IMG/VR virus record: IMGVR_UViG_3300033145_000951
Coordinates: 1-32,004 of that record
Source: a virus
Reading direction: 5' to 3' (one strand)
DNA: 32,004 nt
This document shows, in pieces, positions 1 to 31,887 of this stretch. Numbering within the stretch: the stretch's first letter is position 1; each line of letters opens with the position of its first letter. The notes under the pieces are model-generated. The model worked only from the letters and a program-made list of their open reading frames with translations. It made no database searches and was not told the origin of the DNA. The translations under genes were made by a program, and so were the position numbers.

Positions 1-233
1 CCAAGACCAGGATCGTTATTTATAATCCTTGTATCCTTATCAATTAAGTCGCTTATATCTTCATCTTCAAGACCACCATTGTTTATCAATGTTAATCTAT
101 ATGGAGTTTTAACAGTATCTTTGATATGAGTGAGACACTTTCTCATCAATCCCTCATGATAATTCATGATTCCAATATTAACTAAGTCTCGTTGTGACTT
201 CGGCACTCCGTTAAGTACATTTGAACCAAGCAT
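1..233 (-). CDS. Glycosyltransferase family 2-like protein, N-terminal part (runs off left edge)
   Basis: About 77 codons are visible before the window ends. The N-terminus reads like a GT-A (family 2) fold: a first beta strand VNIGIMNY, then a helix with LMRKCLTHI, then RLTLINNGG and a later IINNDPGLG, the usual order of strand, nucleotide-binding loop and NDxG-like turn. Such enzymes move a sugar from a nucleotide-sugar to an acceptor. The ATG at 233 is chosen because GGAGGG lies six bases upstream; it overlaps the end of the radical SAM gene by 23 bp, so the two are probably translated together. The DXD metal site would lie outside the window, so catalytic competence cannot be judged. Likely substrates are host surface glycans or a virion protein (inference). 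Confidence 0.65.
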   Translation of the reverse strand, partial: MLGSNVLNGVPKSQRDLVNIGIMNYHEGLMRKCLTHIKDTVKTPYRLTLINNGGLEDEDISDLIDKDTRIINNDPGL

Positions 234-1290
234 TATGTTCCCTCCATTTCATACAAGATGCACAACATATATCAATAGCACCAACATTTTTATTATTTCT
301 TAGTTGCATCATTTCTAATCCATTCCATATATCTTCAATGTTATCATTATTTAAATCCCCAACATAATGTTTCTCCATATTGGGACAACAACTAACATAT
401 CCCTCGTTAGAGATAGTAATCATACTCCATGGATCATAACACATACTATCCTGAATTGTTTGCCATAGAGATTCTTCGTCAATTGATTCATAAACTAGCT
501 TGCCACATATAGGTATATCTAGTTTCTTAGATAGTAACTCAGCATTTAGAATAACATCCTTAACTTTATCAGGATCTGTTTTACATATATTCTCAGCATC
601 AAATTCTTTAGTATATTTACCCATCCATACATCATAAGGTTTAATTATACTGAAGTAATCAACATTGTAATTTGATGCCATCTTTATAAGATCTAATAGT
701 TCATCAATGTTTCGTTTAAATAAAACAATAACAAATCCCAAAACGCAATAGTCATCATTTGGATTGATCTCTCTAAGACGCTTTATCATTTCAATGTTCT
801 TTATTAATAAATCAAAGTTGCCATTCTTTCTTATATCTTCATATGTTTCTTTTGTAACACCATCTATTGAAATAGATAGGGTTATTCTGTTATCCAAAAT
901 GAATTTAATTCGTTTTTTTGTAAGGGGAATATTTAAATTTGTACAAGCAACTATACTTGCATTAGGAGCATACTCTCTTAATAATCCTAGAAATTTCTCA
1001 GGATCTTTATGAAGAAATGTCTCGCCTAGTCCACTTACTGAAATTGACTTTGCAGTATATAAATAATCTTTTAATTTATGGATTAAATCAAATGATATAT
1101 CTCCTGCAAATTTATATCCATCGTTTGCCATTATCGTTCTAGGACAAAAAATACATTTAAGATTACATGTAGTTGTAGCAGCAATCGCCCATTGAGTCGG
1201 TGGTAATGCAGTATGTGACTCACTTCTTTGAATACAATCTTCAAGAATCTCTTGATAAAACGGACTTTGTCCCTTCCTTATAATGCTCAT
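211..1290 (-). CDS. Radical SAM protein with SPASM/twitch-type C-terminal cysteines
   Basis: 359 residues. The radical SAM CxxxCxxC motif is at C42, C46 and C49 (CNLKCIFC), and a GLGET segment near residue 100 fits the SAM-binding GGE-like motif. The C-terminal 80 residues hold SPASM-like cysteines: one C about 13 residues before a GYVSCC turn, a later CCASC, and a final C near the terminus, expected to bind auxiliary 4Fe-4S clusters. The family does radical chemistry on peptides, sugars or tRNA; the substrate here is unknown. The start codon overlaps the stop of the upstream 118-residue gene (ATGA), indicating translational coupling, and the glycosyltransferase start lies inside its 3' end. 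It sits directly downstream of the tail-tip genes, an unusual place for such an enzyme. Confidence 0.85.
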   Translation of the reverse strand: MSIIRKGQSPFYQEILEDCIQRSESHTALPPTQWAIAATTTCNLKCIFCPRTIMANDGYKFAGDISFDLIHKLKDYLYTAKSISVSGLGETFLHKDPEKFLGLLREYAPNASIVACTNLNIPLTKKRIKFILDNRITLSISIDGVTKETYEDIRKNGNFDLLIKNIEMIKRLREINPNDDYCVLGFVIVLFKRNIDELLDLIKMASNYNVDYFSIIKPYDVWMGKYTKEFDAENICKTDPDKVKDVILNAELLSKKLDIPICGKLVYESIDEESLWQTIQDSMCYDPWSMITISNEGYVSCCPNMEKHYVGDLNNDNIEDIWNGLEMMQLRNNKNVGAIDICCASCMKWREHNAWFKCT

Positions 1291-1643
1291 TTCTCATCCT
1301 TATACTTATATTTTAATTTCTTGCAACCAGTGTCTTTATATATTTGATTAATTGGTGTGTTCATTAGATAGTCATTCAACCACTCATGAATCTCTTTACA
1401 TGCTATTAATTTAACTGATGTAGTACCCGTATCAAAATCTATTTCTCCAGTACTATATTGCCACGGTGTATGTAATACAGCAATTGAATCATAAGACTCA
1501 TCATCTATTTCAGGGAGTTGAGGAATTAAATCAAATATAGGAACAACACATATCGGATCGCTTATATCTCCAACAATCTTGCTTTTTGATTTCCATTTCC
1601 CTGTTAATGGTAATATATAATTCTTTTCTATTAAATCTATCAT
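1287..1643 (-). CDS. Hypothetical protein, 118 aa, coupled to tail-tip and radical SAM genes
   Basis: I do not recognise this protein. It is acidic in the middle and lysine-rich at the C-terminus (KKLKYKYKDEK), has no signal peptide or membrane segment, and looks like a small mixed alpha/beta protein with TPWQYSTGEIDFDTG as a notable motif. It starts two bases after the tail-tip gene stops (stop at 1645) and its stop overlaps the radical SAM start by four bases, so it is an integral member of the late operon. By position it could be a tail-tip accessory or chaperone, or a partner of the radical SAM enzyme; nothing in the sequence separates these. Confidence 0.7.
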   Translation of the reverse strand: MIDLIEKNYILPLTGKWKSKSKIVGDISDPICVVPIFDLIPQLPEIDDESYDSIAVLHTPWQYSTGEIDFDTGTTSVKLIACKEIHEWLNDYLMNTPINQIYKDTGCKKLKYKYKDEK

Positions 1644-1644
1644 T

Positions 1645-4600
1645 TTAATCTCCAGGTACTAATATTTTAGTTATTAACCAATTCCTTGAAAATGTTGCAT
1701 CTACCATATGAGCTGATGGAGCAGATGTATTATGAGCTGCTTTCAGTTCTACCGTATAGTTAGCTGAATTTTTGGTCACATTATAATTCCCTGTTTTTTG
1801 AGCCCACCAATTACCAGTATGACTTAGTTGAACCTTCTCAACTGCATCCTCTAATAACCTCGCATAAGCTATATATCCTGCATCGAATGAAAACAATCGT
1901 GCTGTAAAAATTCCAAAAGCATATGCGTTTGGATAACTTATAATTGATAATGATCCAAAATCAGCAACCTCTGCCCATGTTGTATTATTTGATGAATGAA
2001 TACCAGCTGCTGAATCATCACCAAGTATTTCATCAACTGTCCATAAAGGTTCTGCTAATACTCCAAAATACTCACTAGCACCAACATCATTTGATAATCG
2101 ACCTTTTACATTATATAGTCCTTCTGATTGATCCCATCTAGCACCACCAACAGTATCATAACGACCCACTGTAACATCACCATCATCTGGTCCATCAACC
2201 ATTACTTCAAATACTGAATCACCTGATGAATCCTCAGCTGACAATCCTACATTTTCATCTTTGAATATCTTAACTTTAGATCCAGAGTCAGATGTAAACT
2301 CAGCTTCGATACCAGTAACTGCTCCTACATTCAATGAGATAGCTGATAGACTTTCAATTGCCGCTAACTCAGATATGATAATTCTTGAAGGAACCAATTC
2401 ATATATAGTTTGCGACCACGTACCTGTCATATAGATACGAACTTTATTTGCTATACGGTTATTTGGGAACAGAGCTATATTAATACCTTCATTTAATTCC
2501 CAATAGTTTGATTTTGCATCTGCTTGGTTTGTTGCATCTACTAATTCGTTATTGCTATCTGGAACATGACCTGAATCGCACTTTAGATATGACCAAGTTG
2601 ATCCAGCATCATTTGAGTATGCAATATAGATATGAGCAGACGAATCACTCATCCATATTCCTACTCTATCAAAATAGTTAGTTATTTCATATTCATAATC
2701 TATATATTTATCTACACCAGATATAGTATATGAGACACCATCTGTAGTTGTATTTCTATCATATAACTTAGATAGTGTTGCTGCACTATTTGAATCTGAA
2801 TCTGTTATAGTTATTGATTGTGATAATTCAACATCAACATTAACAGATGGCATTTGTAATGGAGTACCTGTCTCAGCTTGTGATTGTGTTCCAACTCCAA
2901 ATAAATCATATGGTTTAACTCTAATACTATAGTTAGTTTCATACTCAACATTATTATATTCAGTATCTGTCTCAGGATATGCAATAGTTTGAACTGCCAC
3001 ATCATCAACAATTAATTCATAATATGCCATATCATTGTCAGTAACACTATTCCACTCAACAAGAATAGATGCAAACCTAGATGTAAGTGTTGGAGTTTGT
3101 CCTGACATATCAGGTGCAGGATTTGATACTGTAAGAATGGCAGGACTTGATTCACCATCATCAAAATTAACAGCATACACTTTGAATTTGAATGATCTAA
3201 GTGGTGAACCCGAATTGTCCTCATGATTCTTCTCATATGTATAAGTGTAGTTTGTATCTATATTACTTTTCGTGTATTCAGTCCTTAGCAATGAATCACT
3301 AGTTGTATATACTTCTACTTTATAACGCTTGATATTAACATTACCAACATCAATAAGCGATGTATCATATACACCAGTTGTATCTTGAACAATATAGTTA
3401 GATCCAGTTGAATCCAACCAATCTATAACACAATGTTTGCCATCAAATACAGTTCCACCACCCTCAACTTCTAATCCTTCAGGAGATGCTGGTGCCGTTA
3501 CTTCTGTAGTTATATCTATTCTATTTGAATATGCCCATGTTGATGCTTGATCTGGTGCTACTGCACGTACTGCATATGTATAATTGCCTGATATTAAGTC
3601 TATGTGATCATATGATAATTCAGATGTTGTCCCAAGAGGAACAAATGTACCTGCATCAAAAGCAACTTCAACTTCGTAATGAGTTACACGCCTGTCAGTT
3701 GATGCTTGCCATGACAGAAATATACCATATATTAAATTATCTTTATCACCTTGAGCGTGAGTATATGGTTGTAATGTTATATGTGATGTAGGACTAACTG
3801 ATCCTGTATCAACATTTGCATAAACAGGAGCTTCAACAGATATACCGTTTTCAATTTCATCATATTTACTTGGATAGTATTGAACTCCTGATACTTGATA
3901 TTCAATCCCATCTTCTTCTTTCACATTGACAATTTGAAAATCCCTTATTGGAACATCAGATGTATTCAACATAAATACATTTCCATTGTCTGGTAGATCA
4001 TTCAAAGGAGTTGCCCAAGTAAATGTATTGGTTGTTTCAGGTGAGTTGTTTAATTCTCTCTCAATCAACACTCTGTTTGTTGAATCTTGAATATAGATTG
4101 TATATGTAACTCCATCCTCAAGTTCTATAGTTTTGTCAGCAATAACACATGATGTACTGTCACATGAAAGTATTCTGCCTGATAAATCTTTATCTGCATC
4201 ATTCGGATCTTGAATACCAACTATCTCACCAGGGAATGTATCTGCCCATTCTAATCCACCCTTGAATGTAACTATATCGTTCTGATGAGTATTTGTATAA
4301 TTTACATATTTAGCTTTTCTCATCGCCATACTTCTAGAATTACATCCAATAGCAATCAATTCAACTGGATTTTTACCATTTATTTCAATTGAAGCATCAT
4401 CTTGGAAAACTACTGTATTTGCTTCACCAAAATTATCCATGTCATGATAAGACATTTTAATTATATTTGTCTGTTTATCATTACCTGTACCTTGATATGC
4501 AAACCAACCATTTGATACATTTGCAGGTGTTGCTCCTCTGTTTCTATCTTTTGGTGAGTCTTGAACTATAGATGCCTTTTGTTCTACCCAAATTGGATAA

Positions 4601-6252
4601 CCTTGCATATTCGAAGCTATATCAGTAACTACCGCATAAGCTTGATCTGCATCTTTGATTTGACCATTGAATGTAAATCGTGGTTCCGTACCTTCCTCGC
4701 TCGTATATGATCCATCGTCATTTCTGACTTGTGTTTTATAACTCATCGAAGTGTCACAATAAGCACCGATTGAATATAAAGCCCATTTGTCAATTTGACT
4801 TGCATTTATATACTCACCCAAACCATATCTATTATGTGATAAGATATCATAGTAAACCCAAGCAGGGTTATTTGAATATTCTTTTTTAAATGTTTCTCCA
4901 TCCCAAATACCAACATATATTCTTGCTGTTGTATCATAATTTGAAGGTACTAGTATCTTTTGACCTTTGATTTTAAAGATAATTGAAGGTATTCTTGGAA
5001 AATCTCTAGCATCAAATTTAACACCAACAACGGCAGTATCAGGATATCTCATCTTGATATTTTTCTGTGTTGTATATAATTGCCAGTTAAAAGTTGAATG
5101 TATTTGAGGATGTTGATCATGATCTTGTGTTACTCTATATACTTTTACTAACCAAGGAGCAACACCATACTGAGATATGTTCTCAATTTTCTTTTGAACA
5201 TCAAATGGAGCTTGCGTCTTTTTAATTACCCTTCCAAAATCTTCTTCTTCTTCTGTATATTCATATCCTTCCCAATATTTAACTAATGTTGTTATGACAT
5301 CTTGTTCAACACCACCACCATTATCAGGAGTAACTGTAATTCTATAGTCACAATTTTGATATCTCATAGAACCAGAATCACCTGTCTTAAATAAAGATGC
5401 CCACCTTAGAGTGATTTTAACATCGTCAACCTCTGTATCATTAATAGTTCTTGAGATTGCTCCACCAGCTTGAGTTACTTCTGTTGCTACATTTGTTACA
5501 CTTTCAACTGGATCAAACCCCGTTAGAGCACTTTGATCTGATGTTCCAACATTAGCTTCTATAGTAACATTCTTAAAATTCATTTCACCGGTATCACTCA
5601 TTACTGGTGTTCCATTCAAATAAGTTGATTTATACCAATTATCATCATTCGCAGGACCTTCAATTTCTCCTGTACTTATAACATGAACTGTGCTTAATAT
5701 TTGTGTTGTTCTATTATTTCCTAAATCGAGTGTTTCTGAACCTGACGAAACTATTATTGATCCACCATAGTTATCACCATATGTAATAGGTATTGGAGTT
5801 TCAGCTTGACTTGTATTTTGAGGCTTATCAAATAAGAATGCACTACTTGCATTTTTGGTATCAGGAGATCCAGGAGGACTAGGAGCTAATAGATATGAGA
5901 TCGCATAAGTAACAATCAGTTGAACACCAAACCATACAATATCGGCAACAAGAATGCCAAATATAACAACATCCATATCGCCTTCAACATAAGGAATAAG
6001 ATACCAATTTTCAGAATCAAAGATTACATCGCCTTCATCTAATTCAATTGCTTTAGAATCCTTTATGTTACTACCATGTCTAATCATATACTTGGGATAC
6101 TGTTTTAATAAATCCGAGAATCCTTTGAATTGTGATTCTAATGCTGATATTAATTCACGTAAAGATGACACTTTAATATTTATATTATCAGGTGAATGAT
6201 TATACTTTTCTTTGAATTGCTTCTGTAAATTGTTGCCATAAATGCTTATCAT
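1645..6252 (-). CDS. Tail tip / host specificity protein: natural fusion of lambda gpI-like and gpJ-like proteins
   Basis: 1535 residues. Residues 1-180 match lambda gpI in layout: a ubiquitin-like start with a GF turn (SQFKGFSDLL), a hydrophobic helix pair around 95-122, and the SAFLFDKPQNTSQAETPIPI / YGDNYGGSIIVSSG segment that ends gpI proteins. From about 180 the gpJ body follows (hub and tail-tip barrel, DDASIEINGKNPVELIAIGC), then three FnIII-like domains at roughly 825-1130, a discoidin-like beta sandwich at about 1140-1280 and the GDVTVGRYDTVGG...WD motif near 1370 typical of J fibres. The last 150 residues would bind the receptor. It builds the tail tip and chooses the host. The start abuts the gpK stop. 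The upstream SD is weak (AGGCGG), so expression may rely on coupling to gpK. Confidence 0.92.
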   Translation of the reverse strand: MISIYGNNLQKQFKEKYNHSPDNINIKVSSLRELISALESQFKGFSDLLKQYPKYMIRHGSNIKDSKAIELDEGDVIFDSENWYLIPYVEGDMDVVIFGILVADIVWFGVQLIVTYAISYLLAPSPPGSPDTKNASSAFLFDKPQNTSQAETPIPITYGDNYGGSIIVSSGSETLDLGNNRTTQILSTVHVISTGEIEGPANDDNWYKSTYLNGTPVMSDTGEMNFKNVTIEANVGTSDQSALTGFDPVESVTNVATEVTQAGGAISRTINDTEVDDVKITLRWASLFKTGDSGSMRYQNCDYRITVTPDNGGGVEQDVITTLVKYWEGYEYTEEEEDFGRVIKKTQAPFDVQKKIENISQYGVAPWLVKVYRVTQDHDQHPQIHSTFNWQLYTTQKNIKMRYPDTAVVGVKFDARDFPRIPSIIFKIKGQKILVPSNYDTTARIYVGIWDGETFKKEYSNNPAWVYYDILSHNRYGLGEYINASQIDKWALYSIGAYCDTSMSYKTQVRNDDGSYTSEEGTEPRFTFNGQIKDADQAYAVVTDIASNMQGYPIWVEQKASIVQDSPKDRNRGATPANVSNGWFAYQGTGNDKQTNIIKMSYHDMDNFGEANTVVFQDDASIEINGKNPVELIAIGCNSRSMAMRKAKYVNYTNTHQNDIVTFKGGLEWADTFPGEIVGIQDPNDADKDLSGRILSCDSTSCVIADKTIELEDGVTYTIYIQDSTNRVLIERELNNSPETTNTFTWATPLNDLPDNGNVFMLNTSDVPIRDFQIVNVKEEDGIEYQVSGVQYYPSKYDEIENGISVEAPVYANVDTGSVSPTSHITLQPYTHAQGDKDNLIYGIFLSWQASTDRRVTHYEVEVAFDAGTFVPLGTTSELSYDHIDLISGNYTYAVRAVAPDQASTWAYSNRIDITTEVTAPASPEGLEVEGGGTVFDGKHCVIDWLDSTGSNYIVQDTTGVYDTSLIDVGNVNIKRYKVEVYTTSDSLLRTEYTKSNIDTNYTYTYEKNHEDNSGSPLRSFKFKVYAVNFDDGESSPAILTVSNPAPDMSGQTPTLTSRFASILVEWNSVTDNDMAYYELIVDDVAVQTIAYPETDTEYNNVEYETNYSIRVKPYDLFGVGTQSQAETGTPLQMPSVNVDVELSQSITITDSDSNSAATLSKLYDRNTTTDGVSYTISGVDKYIDYEYEITNYFDRVGIWMSDSSAHIYIAYSNDAGSTWSYLKCDSGHVPDSNNELVDATNQADAKSNYWELNEGINIALFPNNRIANKVRIYMTGTWSQTIYELVPSRIIISELAAIESLSAISLNVGAVTGIEAEFTSDSGSKVKIFKDENVGLSAEDSSGDSVFEVMVDGPDDGDVTVGRYDTVGGARWDQSEGLYNVKGRLSNDVGASEYFGVLAEPLWTVDEILGDDSAAGIHSSNNTTWAEVADFGSLSIISYPNAYAFGIFTARLFSFDAGYIAYARLLEDAVEKVQLSHTGNWWAQKTGNYNVTKNSANYTVELKAAHNTSAPSAHMVDATFSRNWLITKILVPGD

Positions 6253-6966
6253 TTAATTTGTCCGCCTATATATGCTGTGTAATGAATCCCGAAATATTTT
6301 GATTGGATATGTTGCTGATAATCTATTCACAAATTGATGTAAAGCTAGTCCACCATCTAGTAATATACCACAATGGTTTATATATTTACCCACACTATTG
6401 TATAATAGAATGTCTCCTTCTTCTGCTTCGTGTAGTTCTATTATGTGTATCTGTTTACTATCTTTCAAGAAACCTTCAAACATTGGGATATCATCTTCCC
6501 AAAATCCCCATTTCTTTGGTGGATCAGGTAACAATATATCATAATTAATTCTGTAATAATCTCTGACTAATGTTAAACAATCAAAAGCTGCCCAGAAATA
6601 TGGTCTGCCTTTCAATGGTTCAATCTCTAGTGTATCTCCAAAGAATATTACGTGCTTAGTTATCTCATCTTTGAAATTAATTATGCCATATGGAATACCC
6701 ATGTTTTGTTGATTTTCTTTATCTCTATAACTACATGCTGGACTATCATTGTGAGAATGAATAATACATTTAACTTCGTCATTTGAATATAGATCTTCTT
6801 CGATACGAAATGATGTTAATCTATCTTCAGCTACATTCTCATATGGTATAAATTCATCATCTGTAAATATACCACACGCCTCATATGGCAATTGACTTCT
6901 GCAATATTCTACTGCCTGATTAATTAATTTGTGATCAAAATGTTTAATTAAATTAGTTGTGTACAT
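6253..6966 (-). CDS. Tail tip assembly protein, gpK-like: JAB/MPN plus NlpC/P60 peptidase
   Basis: 237 residues with two peptidase modules. The N-terminal JAMM motif is visible as E29 plus H70-S-H72 and S79-x-x-D82, so the zinc site looks complete, although the spacing between the second His and the Ser is six residues where seven is usual. The C-terminal NlpC/P60 half has the nucleophile C130 in FDCLTLVRDYYR, H198 in NHCGILLDGG and H210 as a possible third residue. In lambda-like phages this protein processes tail-tip components and can open peptidoglycan during DNA entry. SD AAGGA precedes the ATG at 6966. The gene overlaps the zinc-ribbon ORF upstream by 14 bp and abuts the tail-tip gene. 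Confidence 0.93.
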   Translation of the reverse strand: MYTTNLIKHFDHKLINQAVEYCRSQLPYEACGIFTDDEFIPYENVAEDRLTSFRIEEDLYSNDEVKCIIHSHNDSPACSYRDKENQQNMGIPYGIINFKDEITKHVIFFGDTLEIEPLKGRPYFWAAFDCLTLVRDYYRINYDILLPDPPKKWGFWEDDIPMFEGFLKDSKQIHIIELHEAEEGDILLYNSVGKYINHCGILLDGGLALHQFVNRLSATYPIKIFRDSLHSIYRRTN

Positions 6967-7147
6967 TTAAATTCCTTTTGGATGTCATACAAGTTATACA
7001 CATTGGCCAGTCAGGAAATGACAATATTGGTTTTCCACATATAGGACATAACTTATATTTAACTATACAATCGCTTAACCTTGTATTATCTTTTAAATTT
7101 TTATTATATTTTAAATTTTTATTTCTATAATAATCTTTTATATACAT
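6953..7147 (-). CDS. Small zinc-ribbon protein between gpL and gpK
   Basis: 64 residues: a basic, lysine- and asparagine-rich N-terminal half, then CPICGKP and CITCM, two CxxC knuckles 13 residues apart, fitting a structural zinc ribbon. GGAGG lies six bases before the ATG at 7147, and the gene starts two bases from the gpL stop and overlaps gpK by 14 bp, so it is translated as part of the tail module. Lambda has no gene here. It may be an assembly factor or a DNA- or RNA-binding regulator carried in the late operon; function unknown. Confidence 0.7.
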   Translation of the reverse strand: MYIKDYYRNKNLKYNKNLKDNTRLSDCIVKYKLCPICGKPILSFPDWPMCITCMTSKRNLNVHN

Positions 7148-7149
7148 AG

Positions 7150-7878
7150 TTAACCTCCACTTAGATCAAGTCCAACCCCTGGAAATGCTTTCATCGGTAA
7201 TTCATTAGTTGTACCAAACCGCAATTTACAATCGACTAATTTCTTTCCACATTTATCATTCTCTTCTGTTGTTTCTACACCTTCAACTGTATAGAAAGAA
7301 GTCGAATCAGTATTTATATATGGGCAAGAAGCATTAGTATATACAAATTCACCATCTACCCATACTCTATATGTTTGACTACATATGGTGGATACTCTTT
7401 CTCTTGGTAATGTAATATGTTCAAGATCAAAAAATACCGTTACTTCAAACGAGACTTCACTTGGATCTCTATTCGTTACTCGATTAATCCTGAAGGTTTC
7501 ATAATTATAATGAGCATTTATATCTGCTTTTGATTCACCATCTAAGTATTTTTTGAATAATCTTGTTACTGTAACTGTGCAATTTGAGAAATTATTATAA
7601 GTTTTCAAATGAGGCACCAACGATCTCGTTACGTTTGATACTGTAAGAGTTGGTCTTGGTAACTGGCCATCTGCTGATCGTTCCATACCTTCGATTTTAA
7701 TTGGAATTGGTGTATATGAATTTCCATCATATACAATATTACTTCCATCCAACGTACCATCAGCAAAATAATGAGTTGTTCCGCCCTGTTTACTCAAATC
7801 AACCTCAAACAGCTCAATATATGGACTGTCTGTTATTAATTTCTGACTATCTCTTATTATTTTTGAATTAGTTGCCAT
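7150..7878 (-). CDS. Minor tail protein, gpL-like
   Basis: 242 residues. It matches lambda gpL in order and shape: an N-terminal beta domain with IELFEVDLS and LPRPTLTVSN, and a C-terminal part with four well-spaced cysteines (STICSQTYR, ASCPYI, DKCGKKLVDCKLRFG). In the gpL family these cysteines bind an iron-sulphur cluster at the tail-tip hub. It should form the ring between gpM and the I-J tip. The neighbouring genes M and K are in the lambda order. The coding end MKAFPGVGLDLSGG resembles the usual FGGFP-type terminus of the family. Confidence 0.9.
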   Translation of the reverse strand: MATNSKIIRDSQKLITDSPYIELFEVDLSKQGGTTHYFADGTLDGSNIVYDGNSYTPIPIKIEGMERSADGQLPRPTLTVSNVTRSLVPHLKTYNNFSNCTVTVTRLFKKYLDGESKADINAHYNYETFRINRVTNRDPSEVSFEVTVFFDLEHITLPRERVSTICSQTYRVWVDGEFVYTNASCPYINTDSTSFYTVEGVETTEENDKCGKKLVDCKLRFGTTNELPMKAFPGVGLDLSGG

Positions 7879-14955: not shown

Positions 14956-15486
14956 CTAATACGAATGATGCCAAAATTCATGACAATCATTACAAATACA
15001 TCTCAAATTATAGTGTTCATTATTATCTCTATTATTATCTAAATGATGACATTCAACTCTGTATTTAGATCCACATAGATAGCAGGTATAGTTATGTCTT
15101 TGTTTTGTATATTGACTCCAATAACCCGTACAACCGCCTGTCCAGTTAGGAGCATCAACCCCTTTTAATGGTTTCCATTCTTCTGAATTGAAATATGAAT
15201 CTGGATCATTCCATACTTTTTTCAATGATGTTGATATTTGTAATTTAATTTCGTCAGAATGAGGTATACCTTTTCGATATTGGTTTCCCTTCATTATATT
15301 ACTATTGTTTATTTTCCACATTTCAGAATGATGTTTCCCATACATTCCATTTTGTTCACCATATAAATATACTGTGGTTTTATCTATTATAGCGGGACAT
15401 CTTTGATATTTTTCTTCACAACACCATTTTCCTGATGTCATTTGATATTTTGCTTCTCTTCCACAACCATAATCACACATTTTCAT
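14956..15486 (-). CDS. Free-standing HNH homing-type endonuclease inserted in the head operon
   Basis: 176 residues. An N-terminal zinc-like module CDYGCGREAKYQ ... WCCEEKYQRCP is followed by a helical linker with NUMOD3-like GKHHSEMW and KGIPHSDE pieces, then YTCYLCGSKYRVECHHLDNN and CICNDCHEFWHH, the HNH nuclease with its zinc-binding CxxC pairs and catalytic HH. Such genes spread by cutting DNA at sites lacking them. It separates the portal from the protease, which are normally adjacent, and both neighbours look intact, so it is an intergenic insertion rather than an intron gene. Upstream hairpin and AGAACAAAC motif are listed separately. Confidence 0.9.
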   Translation of the reverse strand: MKMCDYGCGREAKYQMTSGKWCCEEKYQRCPAIIDKTTVYLYGEQNGMYGKHHSEMWKINNSNIMKGNQYRKGIPHSDEIKLQISTSLKKVWNDPDSYFNSEEWKPLKGVDAPNWTGGCTGYWSQYTKQRHNYTCYLCGSKYRVECHHLDNNRDNNEHYNLRCICNDCHEFWHHSY

Positions 15487-20382: not shown

Positions 20383-20393
20383 GAGGGTTGGGA

Positions 20394-20717
20394 ATGACTG
20401 CAAATATACGAAAGATGGAACCGATTGAGACAAGAATTAGAAAATACACTCAGAAACAGAAATTTGACATTGTAAAGGAAGCACAGGACATGAAAGACTT
20501 CGTCACTGTTGCCAAAAAATATAATGTTGATCATACAACAGTATATAAGTGGAGACAGGCGATAAACAAACAACCTGAAAAGTTTTTAGCGAGAAAGAAG
20601 GATGTGAAAAGAGATAGGGAAGTACATGGACTGAAGAATGAGATTGATGAACTTAAAGATGTGATAGTAGGGCAGGCAAAGGAGATTGAACTGTTAAAAA
20701 AAGAACGCAGGTCTTAG
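20394..20717 (+). CDS. IS3-type transposase OrfA
   Basis: 107 residues from ATG 20394, which has AGGAGGG six bases upstream; an in-frame TTG at 20388 is less likely. RKYTQKQKFDIVKEAQ followed by VAKKYNVDHTTVYKWRQ is the helix-turn-helix of IS3-family OrfA, and the C-terminal third is a leucine-zipper-like coiled coil (LKNEIDELKDVIVGQAKEIE), also standard. It binds the element ends. The stop is only reached when ribosomes do not slip at 20696-20702. Its SD lies immediately behind the stop of the preceding phage gene, unusual for an IS. Confidence 0.88.
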   Translation: MTANIRKMEPIETRIRKYTQKQKFDIVKEAQDMKDFVTVAKKYNVDHTTVYKWRQAINKQPEKFLARKKDVKRDREVHGLKNEIDELKDVIVGQAKEIELLKKERRS

Positions 20718-21703
20718 GGTTAGCTACCCGGAGAAAGCATTCTTCGTTCACACCTAATCAAAGGACGGAAATTTTAAGACTTGTTGATGAATATTCAAAG
20801 AAAGGAGTCTCGAAGCTAAAAATATTTGAAATATTAAGGATAAATTCTACAACTTACTATAATTGGACACAAAAAATACCTAGTGACACAAGACAATCCT
20901 CAAAATTGAAAATAACTCCCATTGAAAAGACAAATCTAATTGATTTAAAGAAATATCACCCTGAATACGGTTGTGGGATGATATCAGGTATGCTTCGTAT
21001 TGATGGGACATCGGTTTCACCGACAACTTGCTATAATTACCTTAAACGTGCTGGTTTGATCATTCCATTGAAGAATAGAAAACCACCAGACAAGTATCCG
21101 AAGTATATGCCCTATATGCCTCTTAAAACAATTGGACTTGATTGGTCATATTTTAAGATTGCTAATGAGAGGTATAACCTTGTTACTGTAATTGATTATT
21201 TTAGCAAGTATCTACTTGGGCATGTGATTGTTAAGAATGTTAATGGTGCAGTAATTCGGAATCTAGTAGCTGGAGTATATCTTGAACAAGGAATTGAACG
21301 TGATAATGCTCCAATGTTATCACTTGATCAGGGAACACCTAATACAGCAAAGAAAACAAAAGACTTCTTACGAGACTTGGGATTTAAATTGAATTACGGA
21401 GAGGCAGCAAGACCGACAACGCATGCTGTTCAGGAAAGATTCTATAAAACGTGGAAACAGGAATTGGTATATCACTTTGAGGCAGATGGTTTCTATGACT
21501 ATGAACATGCAGAGGACTTAATCTCGGACTACATCTATGGATACAATAATAACCGACCTCATAGTTCAATTTATAATTTCGTGCCACATGATGCTCATTA
21601 TGTGTATCAGAATATGTCTTTGATGTTGTCTATATATAGAGACTTAGTACAGAAAGCTAGATTGAGTAGAATTACTTATTGGGAAGAATCATTAGCGGCG
21701 TAA
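20394..21703 (+). CDS. IS3-type transposase OrfAB (-1 frameshift product) with DDE integrase core
   Basis: The OrfB frame is -1 to OrfA, opens after a TGA at 20687-20689 and runs without stop to 21703. Slippage at A AAA AAA G (20696-20703) gives 103 residues of OrfA plus about 333 of OrfB, 436 in all. OrfB begins with an HTH-like part (RRKHSSFTPNQRTEILRLVD), then KYHPEYGCGMISGMLRIDG, and the DDE core: D in LDWSYFK, D in LSLDQGTPN and E in VQERFYKTWKQE, with the family-typical GYNNNRPHSSIYN. All three catalytic residues are present, so it may be active. I found no terminal inverted repeats or target duplication nearby. Confidence 0.82.
20694..20703 (+). promoter_or_regulatory. Programmed -1 frameshift site of orfA/orfB
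   Basis: The OrfA frame reads CTG TTA AAA AAA GAA. A seven-A run followed by G (20696-20703) is the classical IS3-type slippery site, and the -1 frame opens two codons before it. The core TTAAAAAAAG is also present at the phage G/GT site (10519 upward on the minus strand). Confidence 0.8.
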
Positions 21704-29167: not shown

Positions 29168-29320
29168 ATGACTAGGAAGAAAAGATATACTGAAGTCATT
29201 TCAATAATCTTATCTAAAGAATTAAGAGATAGGTTGATTGATGTTACAGATAAAAAAGAAATATCTATATCTGAATATGTAAGAGATGCAGTTGAGGCGA
29301 GATTAGACGATGACAAATAA
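29168..29320 (+). CDS. Ribbon-helix-helix protein, 50 aa
   Basis: AGGAGG eight bases before the ATG at 29168. KKRYTEVISIILSKELRDRL followed by KEISISEYVRDAVEARLDDD is a ribbon-helix-helix domain with hardly anything else. Its end overlaps the start of the HNH gene by 11 bp, so it may control that gene or the block. CAGAACA, a relative of the shared motif, lies about 50 bp upstream. Confidence 0.8.
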   Translation: MTRKKRYTEVISIILSKELRDRLIDVTDKKEISISEYVRDAVEARLDDDK

Positions 29321-29843
29321 TTTATGTAAATGCGGATGTGCTCAAGAAGTATCAAAACCGAAAAATACATATTTGAAAGGTCATTATTTTAAAGGTAAGA
29401 AACGTCCAGATCACAGTAATGCAATAAAGGGTCATAGTGGATATTGGAAGGGAAAGAAACGACTTCATATGTCAGGTGAAAATCATTATTTCTATAACAA
29501 GAAATGTCCTGAACATAGCGAAAGAATGTTAGGTGTAAATAATCCTAACTGGAAAGGCGGGGATCAAACATACTGTGCTGTTTTCTCTGATAAAGAATGG
29601 AGAAAATATATTTTTGATAGAGATAAAAATGCATGTCAATCATGTGGAATATCAGGTCAGATGAATTTTAAATTGTTTGGTTGTAAGTTATCTATTCATC
29701 ATATAGATCATGATAAACATAATTGCAATCCGAATAATTGCACTCTTTTATGTAATAGATGTAACGCTAAAGCTGAAAATAAAATAAGTAATCGAGTTAT
29801 TGAAAGTTTGTTGAACTTAAAATTACTTATTAAGTCAATATAA
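29310..29843 (+). CDS. HNH endonuclease with zinc knuckle and NUMOD3 repeats
   Basis: 177 residues. Starts with CKCGCAQEVSKPKNTYLKGH (zinc knuckle), then three NUMOD3-like pieces (GKKRPDHSNAIKG, GKKRLHMSGEN, CPEHSERMLG), NPNWKGG, and the nuclease ACQSCG ... LSIHHIDHDKHNC ... CTLLCNRCNAK with HNH residues and two zinc-binding CxxC pairs. It differs from the HNH protein at 14956 in the N-terminal module. Likely a free-standing homing endonuclease; both flanking genes are intact. Translation is coupled to the RHH gene before it. Confidence 0.9.
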   Translation: MTNNLCKCGCAQEVSKPKNTYLKGHYFKGKKRPDHSNAIKGHSGYWKGKKRLHMSGENHYFYNKKCPEHSERMLGVNNPNWKGGDQTYCAVFSDKEWRKYIFDRDKNACQSCGISGQMNFKLFGCKLSIHHIDHDKHNCNPNNCTLLCNRCNAKAENKISNRVIESLLNLKLLIKSI

Positions 29844-30774: not shown

Positions 30775-30908
30775 ATGGCAGGGGATATCATATACCATGC
30801 TGTGTGGATGAACTTTATCAGGGCGGTTGCTGTTGATGAAGAACTTGAAAAGGTGATTGAAAAGGATCTGAAGAAATGTATGACTCCTGCCAAGAAAATT
30901 GGAGATAT

Positions 30909-30937
30909 TTGACACTTGGGATAAAATGTATTATATT
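30909..30937 (+). promoter_or_regulatory. Promoter of the lipoprotein gene
   Basis: TTGACA (30909-30914), a 17-bp spacer and TATATT (30932-30937), 20 bp before the ATG at 30957. The -35 overlaps the stop codon of the GroES-like frame. The hexamers are the same as in the promoter at 19626. Confidence 0.75.
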
Positions 30938-30956
30938 GAATGAAAAGGAGGGTAAT

Positions 30957-31157
30957 ATGAAAAAACTGTTGATTAGTATCATGATTGCAGCATTAGTATT
31001 AATGACGGGTTGTATTACTACTAAAGGACCGTATTACGCGCCACAAGTCAGTAGAATATATGATGACGAAGGACATTTAGTCGGTAAGATACACCATCAT
31101 AAATATGAATCAAGAGTTTATGATGACGAAGGTAGATTTATGTATAAGATAAGATGA
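30957..31157 (+). CDS. Small predicted lipoprotein with a tandem YDDEG repeat, 66 aa
   Basis: Start at ATG 30957, five to six bases after AAGGAGGG; the longer frame from 30876 crosses the promoter and is rejected. A lysine pair is followed by a hydrophobic core and LMTGC, a lipobox with the cysteine at residue 19, so it should be lipid-anchored. The mature part has two related pieces, SRIYDDEGHLVGKI and SRVYDDEGRFMYKI, like strands of a small beta fold. It has its own promoter and faces convergent genes, as expected of a gene expressed from a prophage. Superinfection exclusion or host surface change are possible roles (inference). Confidence 0.75.
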   Translation: MKKLLISIMIAALVLMTGCITTKGPYYAPQVSRIYDDEGHLVGKIHHHKYESRVYDDEGRFMYKIR

Positions 31158-31526
31158 TTATTCGTCTTCTACTTCTTCAATCTCCTCTGACCGTATGATA
31201 TATTTATCAACTTTATCATCAATGCTTAAAGTTGTAGCTCCAATGGTGAGTAATATTCCTATTATGAAGGTAGTAATCCCACCAACTATCCAACTGAACT
31301 GAGTCCAACCAACTTTATCATCAATCTTATTATAAATCTCACCTTTACAATCATCACAATTATCATCATCATGTTGCATCCTAGATTCTATTCTATCTAT
31401 ATTTCTATTGAGAGTATCAATAATTATTTTATGATCCTCTCTATTATTTTGTTCATATTTCTTTAGAGATTCGCTCATTTGCATAACTGTAGTTTCAACT
31501 TTTATCAACAACTCATTATCTGTCAT
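31158..31526 (-). CDS. XhlA/holin-like coiled-coil protein with one membrane segment
   Basis: 122 residues. The first 75 form a charged coiled coil (KVETTVMQMSESLKKYEQNN, DTLNRNIDRIESRMQ), including DDDNCDDC; then WTQFSWIVGGITTFIIGI forms a membrane segment, and the end is acidic (EEIEEVEDE). This layout is that of XhlA-type proteins that act with holin and endolysin in lysis. No endolysin is visible in the window. The stop lies directly next to the stop of the convergent lipoprotein gene, with no terminator between them. Confidence 0.6.
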   Translation of the reverse strand: MTDNELLIKVETTVMQMSESLKKYEQNNREDHKIIIDTLNRNIDRIESRMQHDDDNCDDCKGEIYNKIDDKVGWTQFSWIVGGITTFIIGILLTIGATTLSIDDKVDKYIIRSEEIEEVEDE

Positions 31527-31548
31527 CTCTAACTATCTCCTATTAATA

Positions 31549-31887
31549 TTAATTATCTTTTACAAACACACCTGGAAAATCTATTTCCGCAACCCATGCA
31601 TTATCTAAGGTCAGGACAAATTGAAATTTATATCTCCCTTCTCCAAATGCAGTTGGATATTTTACAACAACTGATATTTCATCCCCTGCTAGGGATGGTG
31701 TTCCATCAATAATTGCAGTAGTAACATTCGTACCATCTGCATCATATGCAGTAACAGTAGCACTTGATATAGACCTTCCATATGGAATTGCACCTTTTGC
31801 TGTTGCTGTACTGCAAGTTGCAAATTTAAATGTATGACCAATTTTTGTGTTTGGCTGTATTGTTATATTACCGTCTATATAAGACAT
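31549..31887 (-). CDS. Small Ig-like beta-sandwich phage protein, 112 aa
   Basis: Almost wholly beta: TFKFATCSTATAKGAIP, ISSATVTAYDADGTNVTTAI, DEISVVVKYPTAFGEGRYKF and AWVAEIDFPGVFV. The pattern of a variable-like domain with YDADGT and a closing E-D-F strand is seen in phage baseplate-upper and decoration proteins. It probably belongs to the tail or virion surface, or to an adsorption accessory. SD AAGGAG precedes the ATG at 31887. It lies between the XhlA-like gene and the partial gene at the edge. Confidence 0.6.
   Translation of the reverse strand: MSYIDGNITIQPNTKIGHTFKFATCSTATAKGAIPYGRSISSATVTAYDADGTNVTTAIIDGTPSLAGDEISVVVKYPTAFGEGRYKFQFVLTLDNAWVAEIDFPGVFVKDN

Follow-up and report, generated by a model that had tools for sequence, protein, structure and literature searches.

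A radical SAM gene cassette packed behind the tail-tip gene of a lambda-like phage may act on a host surface sugar

In a lambda-like siphovirus, the tail-tip gene is followed immediately by a compact cassette encoding a radical SAM enzyme with a twitch-type auxiliary domain. We favour the reading, to which we give a little less than an even chance, that this late-operon cassette was acquired and acts on a sugar, oxidising it and altering host surface glycan, the most likely target. The initial annotation had proposed a modification module acting on the receptor-binding tip, on the 118-aa protein encoded next to it or on host surface sugars. An accessory cassette is a fair description, and a surface sugar is the class of substrate best supported, by the nearest relatives of the enzyme; we found no positive evidence for the tip or the 118-aa protein as target. 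Cassettes of this kind are already known, and the present one is a compact addition to them.

The window, by which we mean the whole stretch of DNA analysed, is a complete IMG/VR record of 32,004 bases that is classed as linear, a class that often denotes a fragment. It represents a lambda-like siphovirus with a GC content of ~33% and genes for terminase, capsid, protease, tape measure and L-, K- and J-like proteins. The cassette lies at the left end of the window on the minus strand, behind genes for a gpK-like NlpC/P60 tail protein (6253–6966, minus strand) and the tail-tip attachment protein (1645–6252, minus strand). The latter matches phrog_31, 'central tail fiber J' (E = 1.3e-177), and its N-terminal part is a match to phrog_32 (tail assembly, gpI-like), so that I and J form a single ORF. 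The fused protein has 1535 aa; I and J are separate in relatives L002 and L025–L028.

Other features of the window include candidate mobile genes. On the plus strand (20388–21703), a small helix-turn-helix ORF is followed by an IS3-like transposase ORF, a pair that may represent either an insertion element or an integrase of the transposase type, and HNH endonuclease-like ORFs at 14956–15486 and 29310–29843 are candidate homing genes. Minus-strand ORFs at the right end (31158–31887), one with an apparent single membrane segment, may extend the late operon should the genome be a circle; next to them, on the opposite strand, lies a short ORF (30876–31157) that is lipoprotein-like and contains an internal repeat (YDDEG..). 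We recognised no endolysin in the window; it may sit in the missing DNA together with the remainder of the gene truncated at the left end.

The cassette consists of three minus-strand genes: one for an orphan protein of 118 aa (1287–1643), one for the radical SAM enzyme of 359 aa (211–1290), and one of which the first 77 codons are present (3–233) before it runs off the contig, putatively encoding the N-terminus of a glycosyltransferase. Their starts are at positions 1643, 1290 and 233. The first start lies 1 nt past the end of gpJ at 1645, the radical SAM gene overlaps the 118-aa gene by 4 nt, and the truncated gene overlaps the radical SAM gene by 23 nt. These coordinates bear out the earlier description of a 118-aa gene and a radical SAM gene that overlap or abut directly behind the I-J tip. 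Each of the three starts has a good Shine-Dalgarno-like sequence ahead of it (CTGGAG, AAGGATGAG and GGAGGG, respectively), that of the truncated gene being strong. On the minus strand we found no terminator-like site from the gpJ stop to the left end of the contig, and searches returned no such site above expectation, no Rfam match and no tRNA. Given the tight packing behind gpJ, the radical SAM gene is probably co-transcribed and translationally coupled. Judged from these signals, the cassette genes are real and probably co-expressed.

The radical SAM ORF scores 44.1 bits against the Pfam Radical_SAM profile (PF04055; cut-off 29.5), which places it in the superfamily, and 34.5 bits against the Pfam SPASM profile (cut-off 21.5), a model that also takes in shorter forms. 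The CX3CX2C motif is intact at C42/C46/C49, where it reads CNLKCIFC, as had been noticed from the sequence. Auxiliary cysteines are found as C284-X12-G-X4-C302 (C284-X17-C302) and C343-X2-C346, and all seven cysteines (42, 46, 49, 284, 302, 343 and 346) are invariant in an alignment of six proteins. A full SPASM motif has the form CX9-15GX4C - CX2CX5CX3C - C and supplies seven cysteines for two auxiliary clusters. The first half and the CX2C are present in the phage protein, and the CX5CX3C half is absent. At the motif level, the protein thus has the four-cysteine twitch of BtrN type rather than the full seven-cysteine SPASM, and C284, C302, C343 and C346 fit a single auxiliary cluster. The 'SPASM-like cysteines' of the initial annotation are therefore intact as a four-ligand twitch set, and not as a complete SPASM domain.

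The twitch is a shortened SPASM with one auxiliary cluster (PMC9012708), and among solved structures the closest by sequence is that of the aminocyclitol dehydrogenase BtrN (E = 1e-5, over parts of the sequence only). Both proteins combine a radical SAM core with a four-cysteine twitch of the same CX17C and CX2C spacing, and C284/C302 are in register with C169/C187 of BtrN. BtrN, which binds one auxiliary cluster, oxidises its aminocyclitol substrate by two electrons (PMC9012708). However, the match is distant and partial, and the substrate of BtrN belongs to antibiotic synthesis. BtrN-like chemistry would be plausible by analogy. Because SPASM/twitch enzymes also act on peptides, the chemistry alone does not decide the substrate.

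The nearest relatives of the enzyme point towards sugars. The closest that we found is a gene on a Brachyspira hyodysenteriae plasmid, within an rfb sugar and glycosyltransferase block ordered rfbF-rfbG-[radical SAM]-rfbC-oxidoreductase-glycosyltransferase; a plasmid block carrying radical SAM and glycosyltransferase genes has been described (PMC4267127). The identity is 28–29.5%, and the gene is on a bacterial plasmid rather than in a phage. In UC3 (WD0613) of Wolbachia phage WO, a radical SAM-SPASM region similar to almost the entire window enzyme is fused to a glycosyltransferase recognised by Pfam; unlike the window genes, this is one fused protein in the Undecim cluster, away from any tail-tip gene. 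Other relatives adjoin GT2/GT87, GT25, or a sugar-type aminotransferase with WbqC, and similar-looking genes, judged by eye, occur in large viral contigs. Across 20 bacterial neighbourhoods, GT2 was found in 4 of 102 neighbours as against at most 1 of 104 controls, a difference that is not significant. This count is weak, so the case for a sugar substrate is built on the nearest relatives and on precedent, leaving the broad statistic aside. All relatives are distant, at about 30% identity or less, so the substrate cannot be carried over from any of them. Single-sequence scans of viral and genome contigs returned no relatives of the enzyme, and a DNA pattern for CNLxCIFCPR was not found in viral contigs. 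The window enzyme sits on a long branch in our tree; its joining with the L019 enzyme was flagged as possible long-branch attraction and left unused.

The truncated gene had been called a glycosyltransferase, a putative assignment: the fragment has no sequence family match, and its fold resemblance is weak. Its 77 residues matched nothing in Pfam (at E up to 10, with GT2, PF00535, and other glycosyltransferase profiles included), PHROGs, NCBIfam, PDB sequences or plasmids, and tblastn in phages returned two chance-level matches only (E 0.7 and 7). Against a home-made GT2 profile, the fragment scored below many shuffled sequences. A single-sequence model has a mean pLDDT of 63 (low confidence), and Foldseek searches of two libraries with this model gave no match below E 0.5. 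With VIA-align, nine different glycosyltransferases align to approximately residues 13–77 of the same low-confidence model (Z 3.6–5.2), mostly at the start of their own domain, the N-terminal GT-A unit, although unrelated folds tie with them. Mostly on the strength of this fold register, of how the sequence looks and of where the gene lies, we consider that the fragment probably is a glycosyltransferase.

We found no relative of the 118-aa protein in phages, in plasmids or in 398 genomes of one phylum, no relative in a single-sequence scan of viral contigs, and no family match in Pfam, PHROGs or NCBIfam searches. Its fold model (pLDDT 39) is useless, and the idea of a methyltransferase remnant, weighed by eye, was dropped since no profile matched. 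The 4-nt overlap with the radical SAM gene, and the weak resemblance of the enzyme to many peptide-maturase models, would suit a RiPP-like pair in which the 118-aa protein is a precursor peptide and the enzyme its maturase. However, all the NCBIfam maturase matches listed fall far below their curated cut-offs, which does not make the enzyme a member of those families, and the 118-aa protein, with no family, has just three scattered cysteines. The slot itself also argues against such a pair: among 88 J-bearing loci, 45 have a small ORF of 80–160 aa starting between -30 and +60 nt from the J stop, and none of these relatives has a radical SAM gene. Thirty-three of the 45 form one linked cluster of ~100-aa proteins (loci within L034–L109), a widespread family that begins no more than a few nt from the gpJ stop and to which PHROGs mostly assigns no function, and whose tested members (L042, L046, L047 and L059) match phrog_4047 or phrog_2427, both annotated as of unknown function; the 118-aa protein scores at shuffle level against every post-J protein cluster. 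Because phages that lack a radical SAM gene there often fill this slot with an unrelated ~100-aa protein, there is no need to see a substrate in the 118-aa ORF. Its position hints at a tail-accessory function and speaks against a substrate, and is proof of neither. We conclude that it is more likely a tail-accessory protein of the usual post-J slot than the substrate of the enzyme. A RiPP-like pair is accordingly very improbable, and the 118-aa protein as peptide substrate, with the same slender chance, is the least likely reading of all.

Sequence behind J extends for at least 1 kb in 67 of the 88 J-bearing loci, at least 3 kb in 51 and at least 5 kb in 28. No relative of the radical SAM enzyme, the 118-aa protein or the 77-aa fragment was present at any of the 88, including the 51 in which this sequence reaches 3 kb or more, so that the trio sought behind gpJ in other phages was not found in these relatives. 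In the best-covered close relative, L028, the place behind J is taken by different ORFs, several of tail type and one that is large and rich in repeats, and the L028 record contains no Radical_SAM match. We conclude that this phage carries the cassette as an accessory, outside the tail module. Its absence from all 88 relatives would also suit a radical SAM gene of metabolic or cofactor function, or a passenger captured recently, in either case functionally unconnected with tail and glycan. Metalloenzyme maturases are among the best NCBIfam resemblances of the window enzyme, and the authors of the genome of Campylobacter phage CP220 suggested that its radical SAM genes may serve host metabolism when oxygen is low (PMC2853527). 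Nevertheless, the tight overlaps, the Shine-Dalgarno sequences and the GC content (0.30 for the radical SAM and 118-aa genes, against a phage average of ~0.33) argue for an integrated, expressed gene, and we regard an unconnected gene as possible but doubtful.

Placement next to tail genes is seen in two other elements. In the Paraburkholderia phage-like plasmid L006, a radical SAM gene (5779–7104) lies right behind a small ORF that follows tail-type genes, and in the IMG/VR contig L013 one (5863–7350), carried on the opposite strand, is flanked by tail-fibre and endolysin genes. The two enzymes, 46% identical to each other, form a clade of their own (support 100/100), apart from the window enzyme; this tail-adjacent clade belongs to Mu/P2-like elements and so far comprises these two. 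Searches of 388 further genomes and of phages returned no tail-linked gene of the L013 type; the Paraburkholderia plasmid has the only other one found. Radical SAM genes thus seem to have settled beside tail genes more than once, and this recurrence, together with the pelagimyophage clusters described below, means that the placement in the window may not be pure accident. The initial annotation held that its proposal would fail if such genes occurred elsewhere with no link to tail genes. This is partly so: related radical SAM genes do lie in sugar clusters without a tail link, and others adjoin tail-fibre genes.

Such placement, together with the packing of the cassette directly behind gpJ and the proposal of phage-encoded virion glycosylation for mycobacteriophages (PMC11256854), could be taken to mean that gpJ or the 118-aa protein is the target of the radical SAM enzyme and the glycosyltransferase, with a change in receptor binding or stability as the outcome. 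Against this, the separate L006/L013 clade makes the recurrence one of position and not of a shared enzyme, the cassette does not accompany J in its relatives, and no tail substrate motif was identified. We therefore consider virion modification unlikely. The narrower proposal, that the enzyme and its partner glycosyltransferase put a radical-derived modification on the phage's own tail tip or 118-aa companion and so tune receptor binding, is less likely again; we know of no such radical-derived modification of a virion.

Precedents for a cassette acting on host sugars come from large phages. The host-recognition clusters of pelagimyophages bring together tail fibres, glycosyltransferases and radical SAM cassettes, and the authors interpreted the glycosyltransferases as modifying the host O-chain (PMC7029224). 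The siting with tail-fibre genes is shared with the window, but those phages are T4-like with islands of ~45 kb, whereas here one radical SAM gene is packed behind a lambda-like gpJ. In CP220, the radical SAM gene gp087 overlaps an annotated nucleotide-diphospho-sugar transferase gene by 25 nt, and in CP220/CPt10 this arrangement is part of an exchangeable module (PMC2853527); however, these phages carry many radical SAM genes, and the tail-fibre gene is ~11 kb away. The six CP220/CPt10 radical SAM proteins that were compared showed no similarity to the window enzyme detectable with phmmer, and a possible kinship of the 77-aa fragment with gp088/gp089 was rejected, its alignment being no better than those of shuffled sequences. 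Set beside such host-recognition cassettes, the window has a radical SAM gene adjoining a tail gene and a candidate glycosyltransferase gene that is cut by the contig end. The combination had been called uncommon, which is right for this type of phage, but it is known in large ones.

In the reading that we favour, modification of a host surface sugar, an accessory cassette of the 'moron' type would have been acquired into the late operon. A 5′-deoxyadenosyl radical would form at the C42/C46/C49 cluster and abstract hydrogen from a substrate that is a sugar or resembles one; with the second electron passing to the twitch [4Fe-4S] cluster, the outcome would be a two-electron oxidation like that catalysed by BtrN. 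If the gene downstream encodes a glycosyltransferase, its product would put the altered sugar onto a glycan, the likeliest target being host surface polysaccharide; late in infection, this could limit superinfection or the re-adsorption of released particles. The cassette extends the association of phage radical SAM and sugar genes from large phages to a small lambda-like phage, with the tightest coupling to gpJ that we have seen here, and it offers a compact, testable unit for the role of phage radical SAM enzymes, in modifying host surface sugars or the virion.
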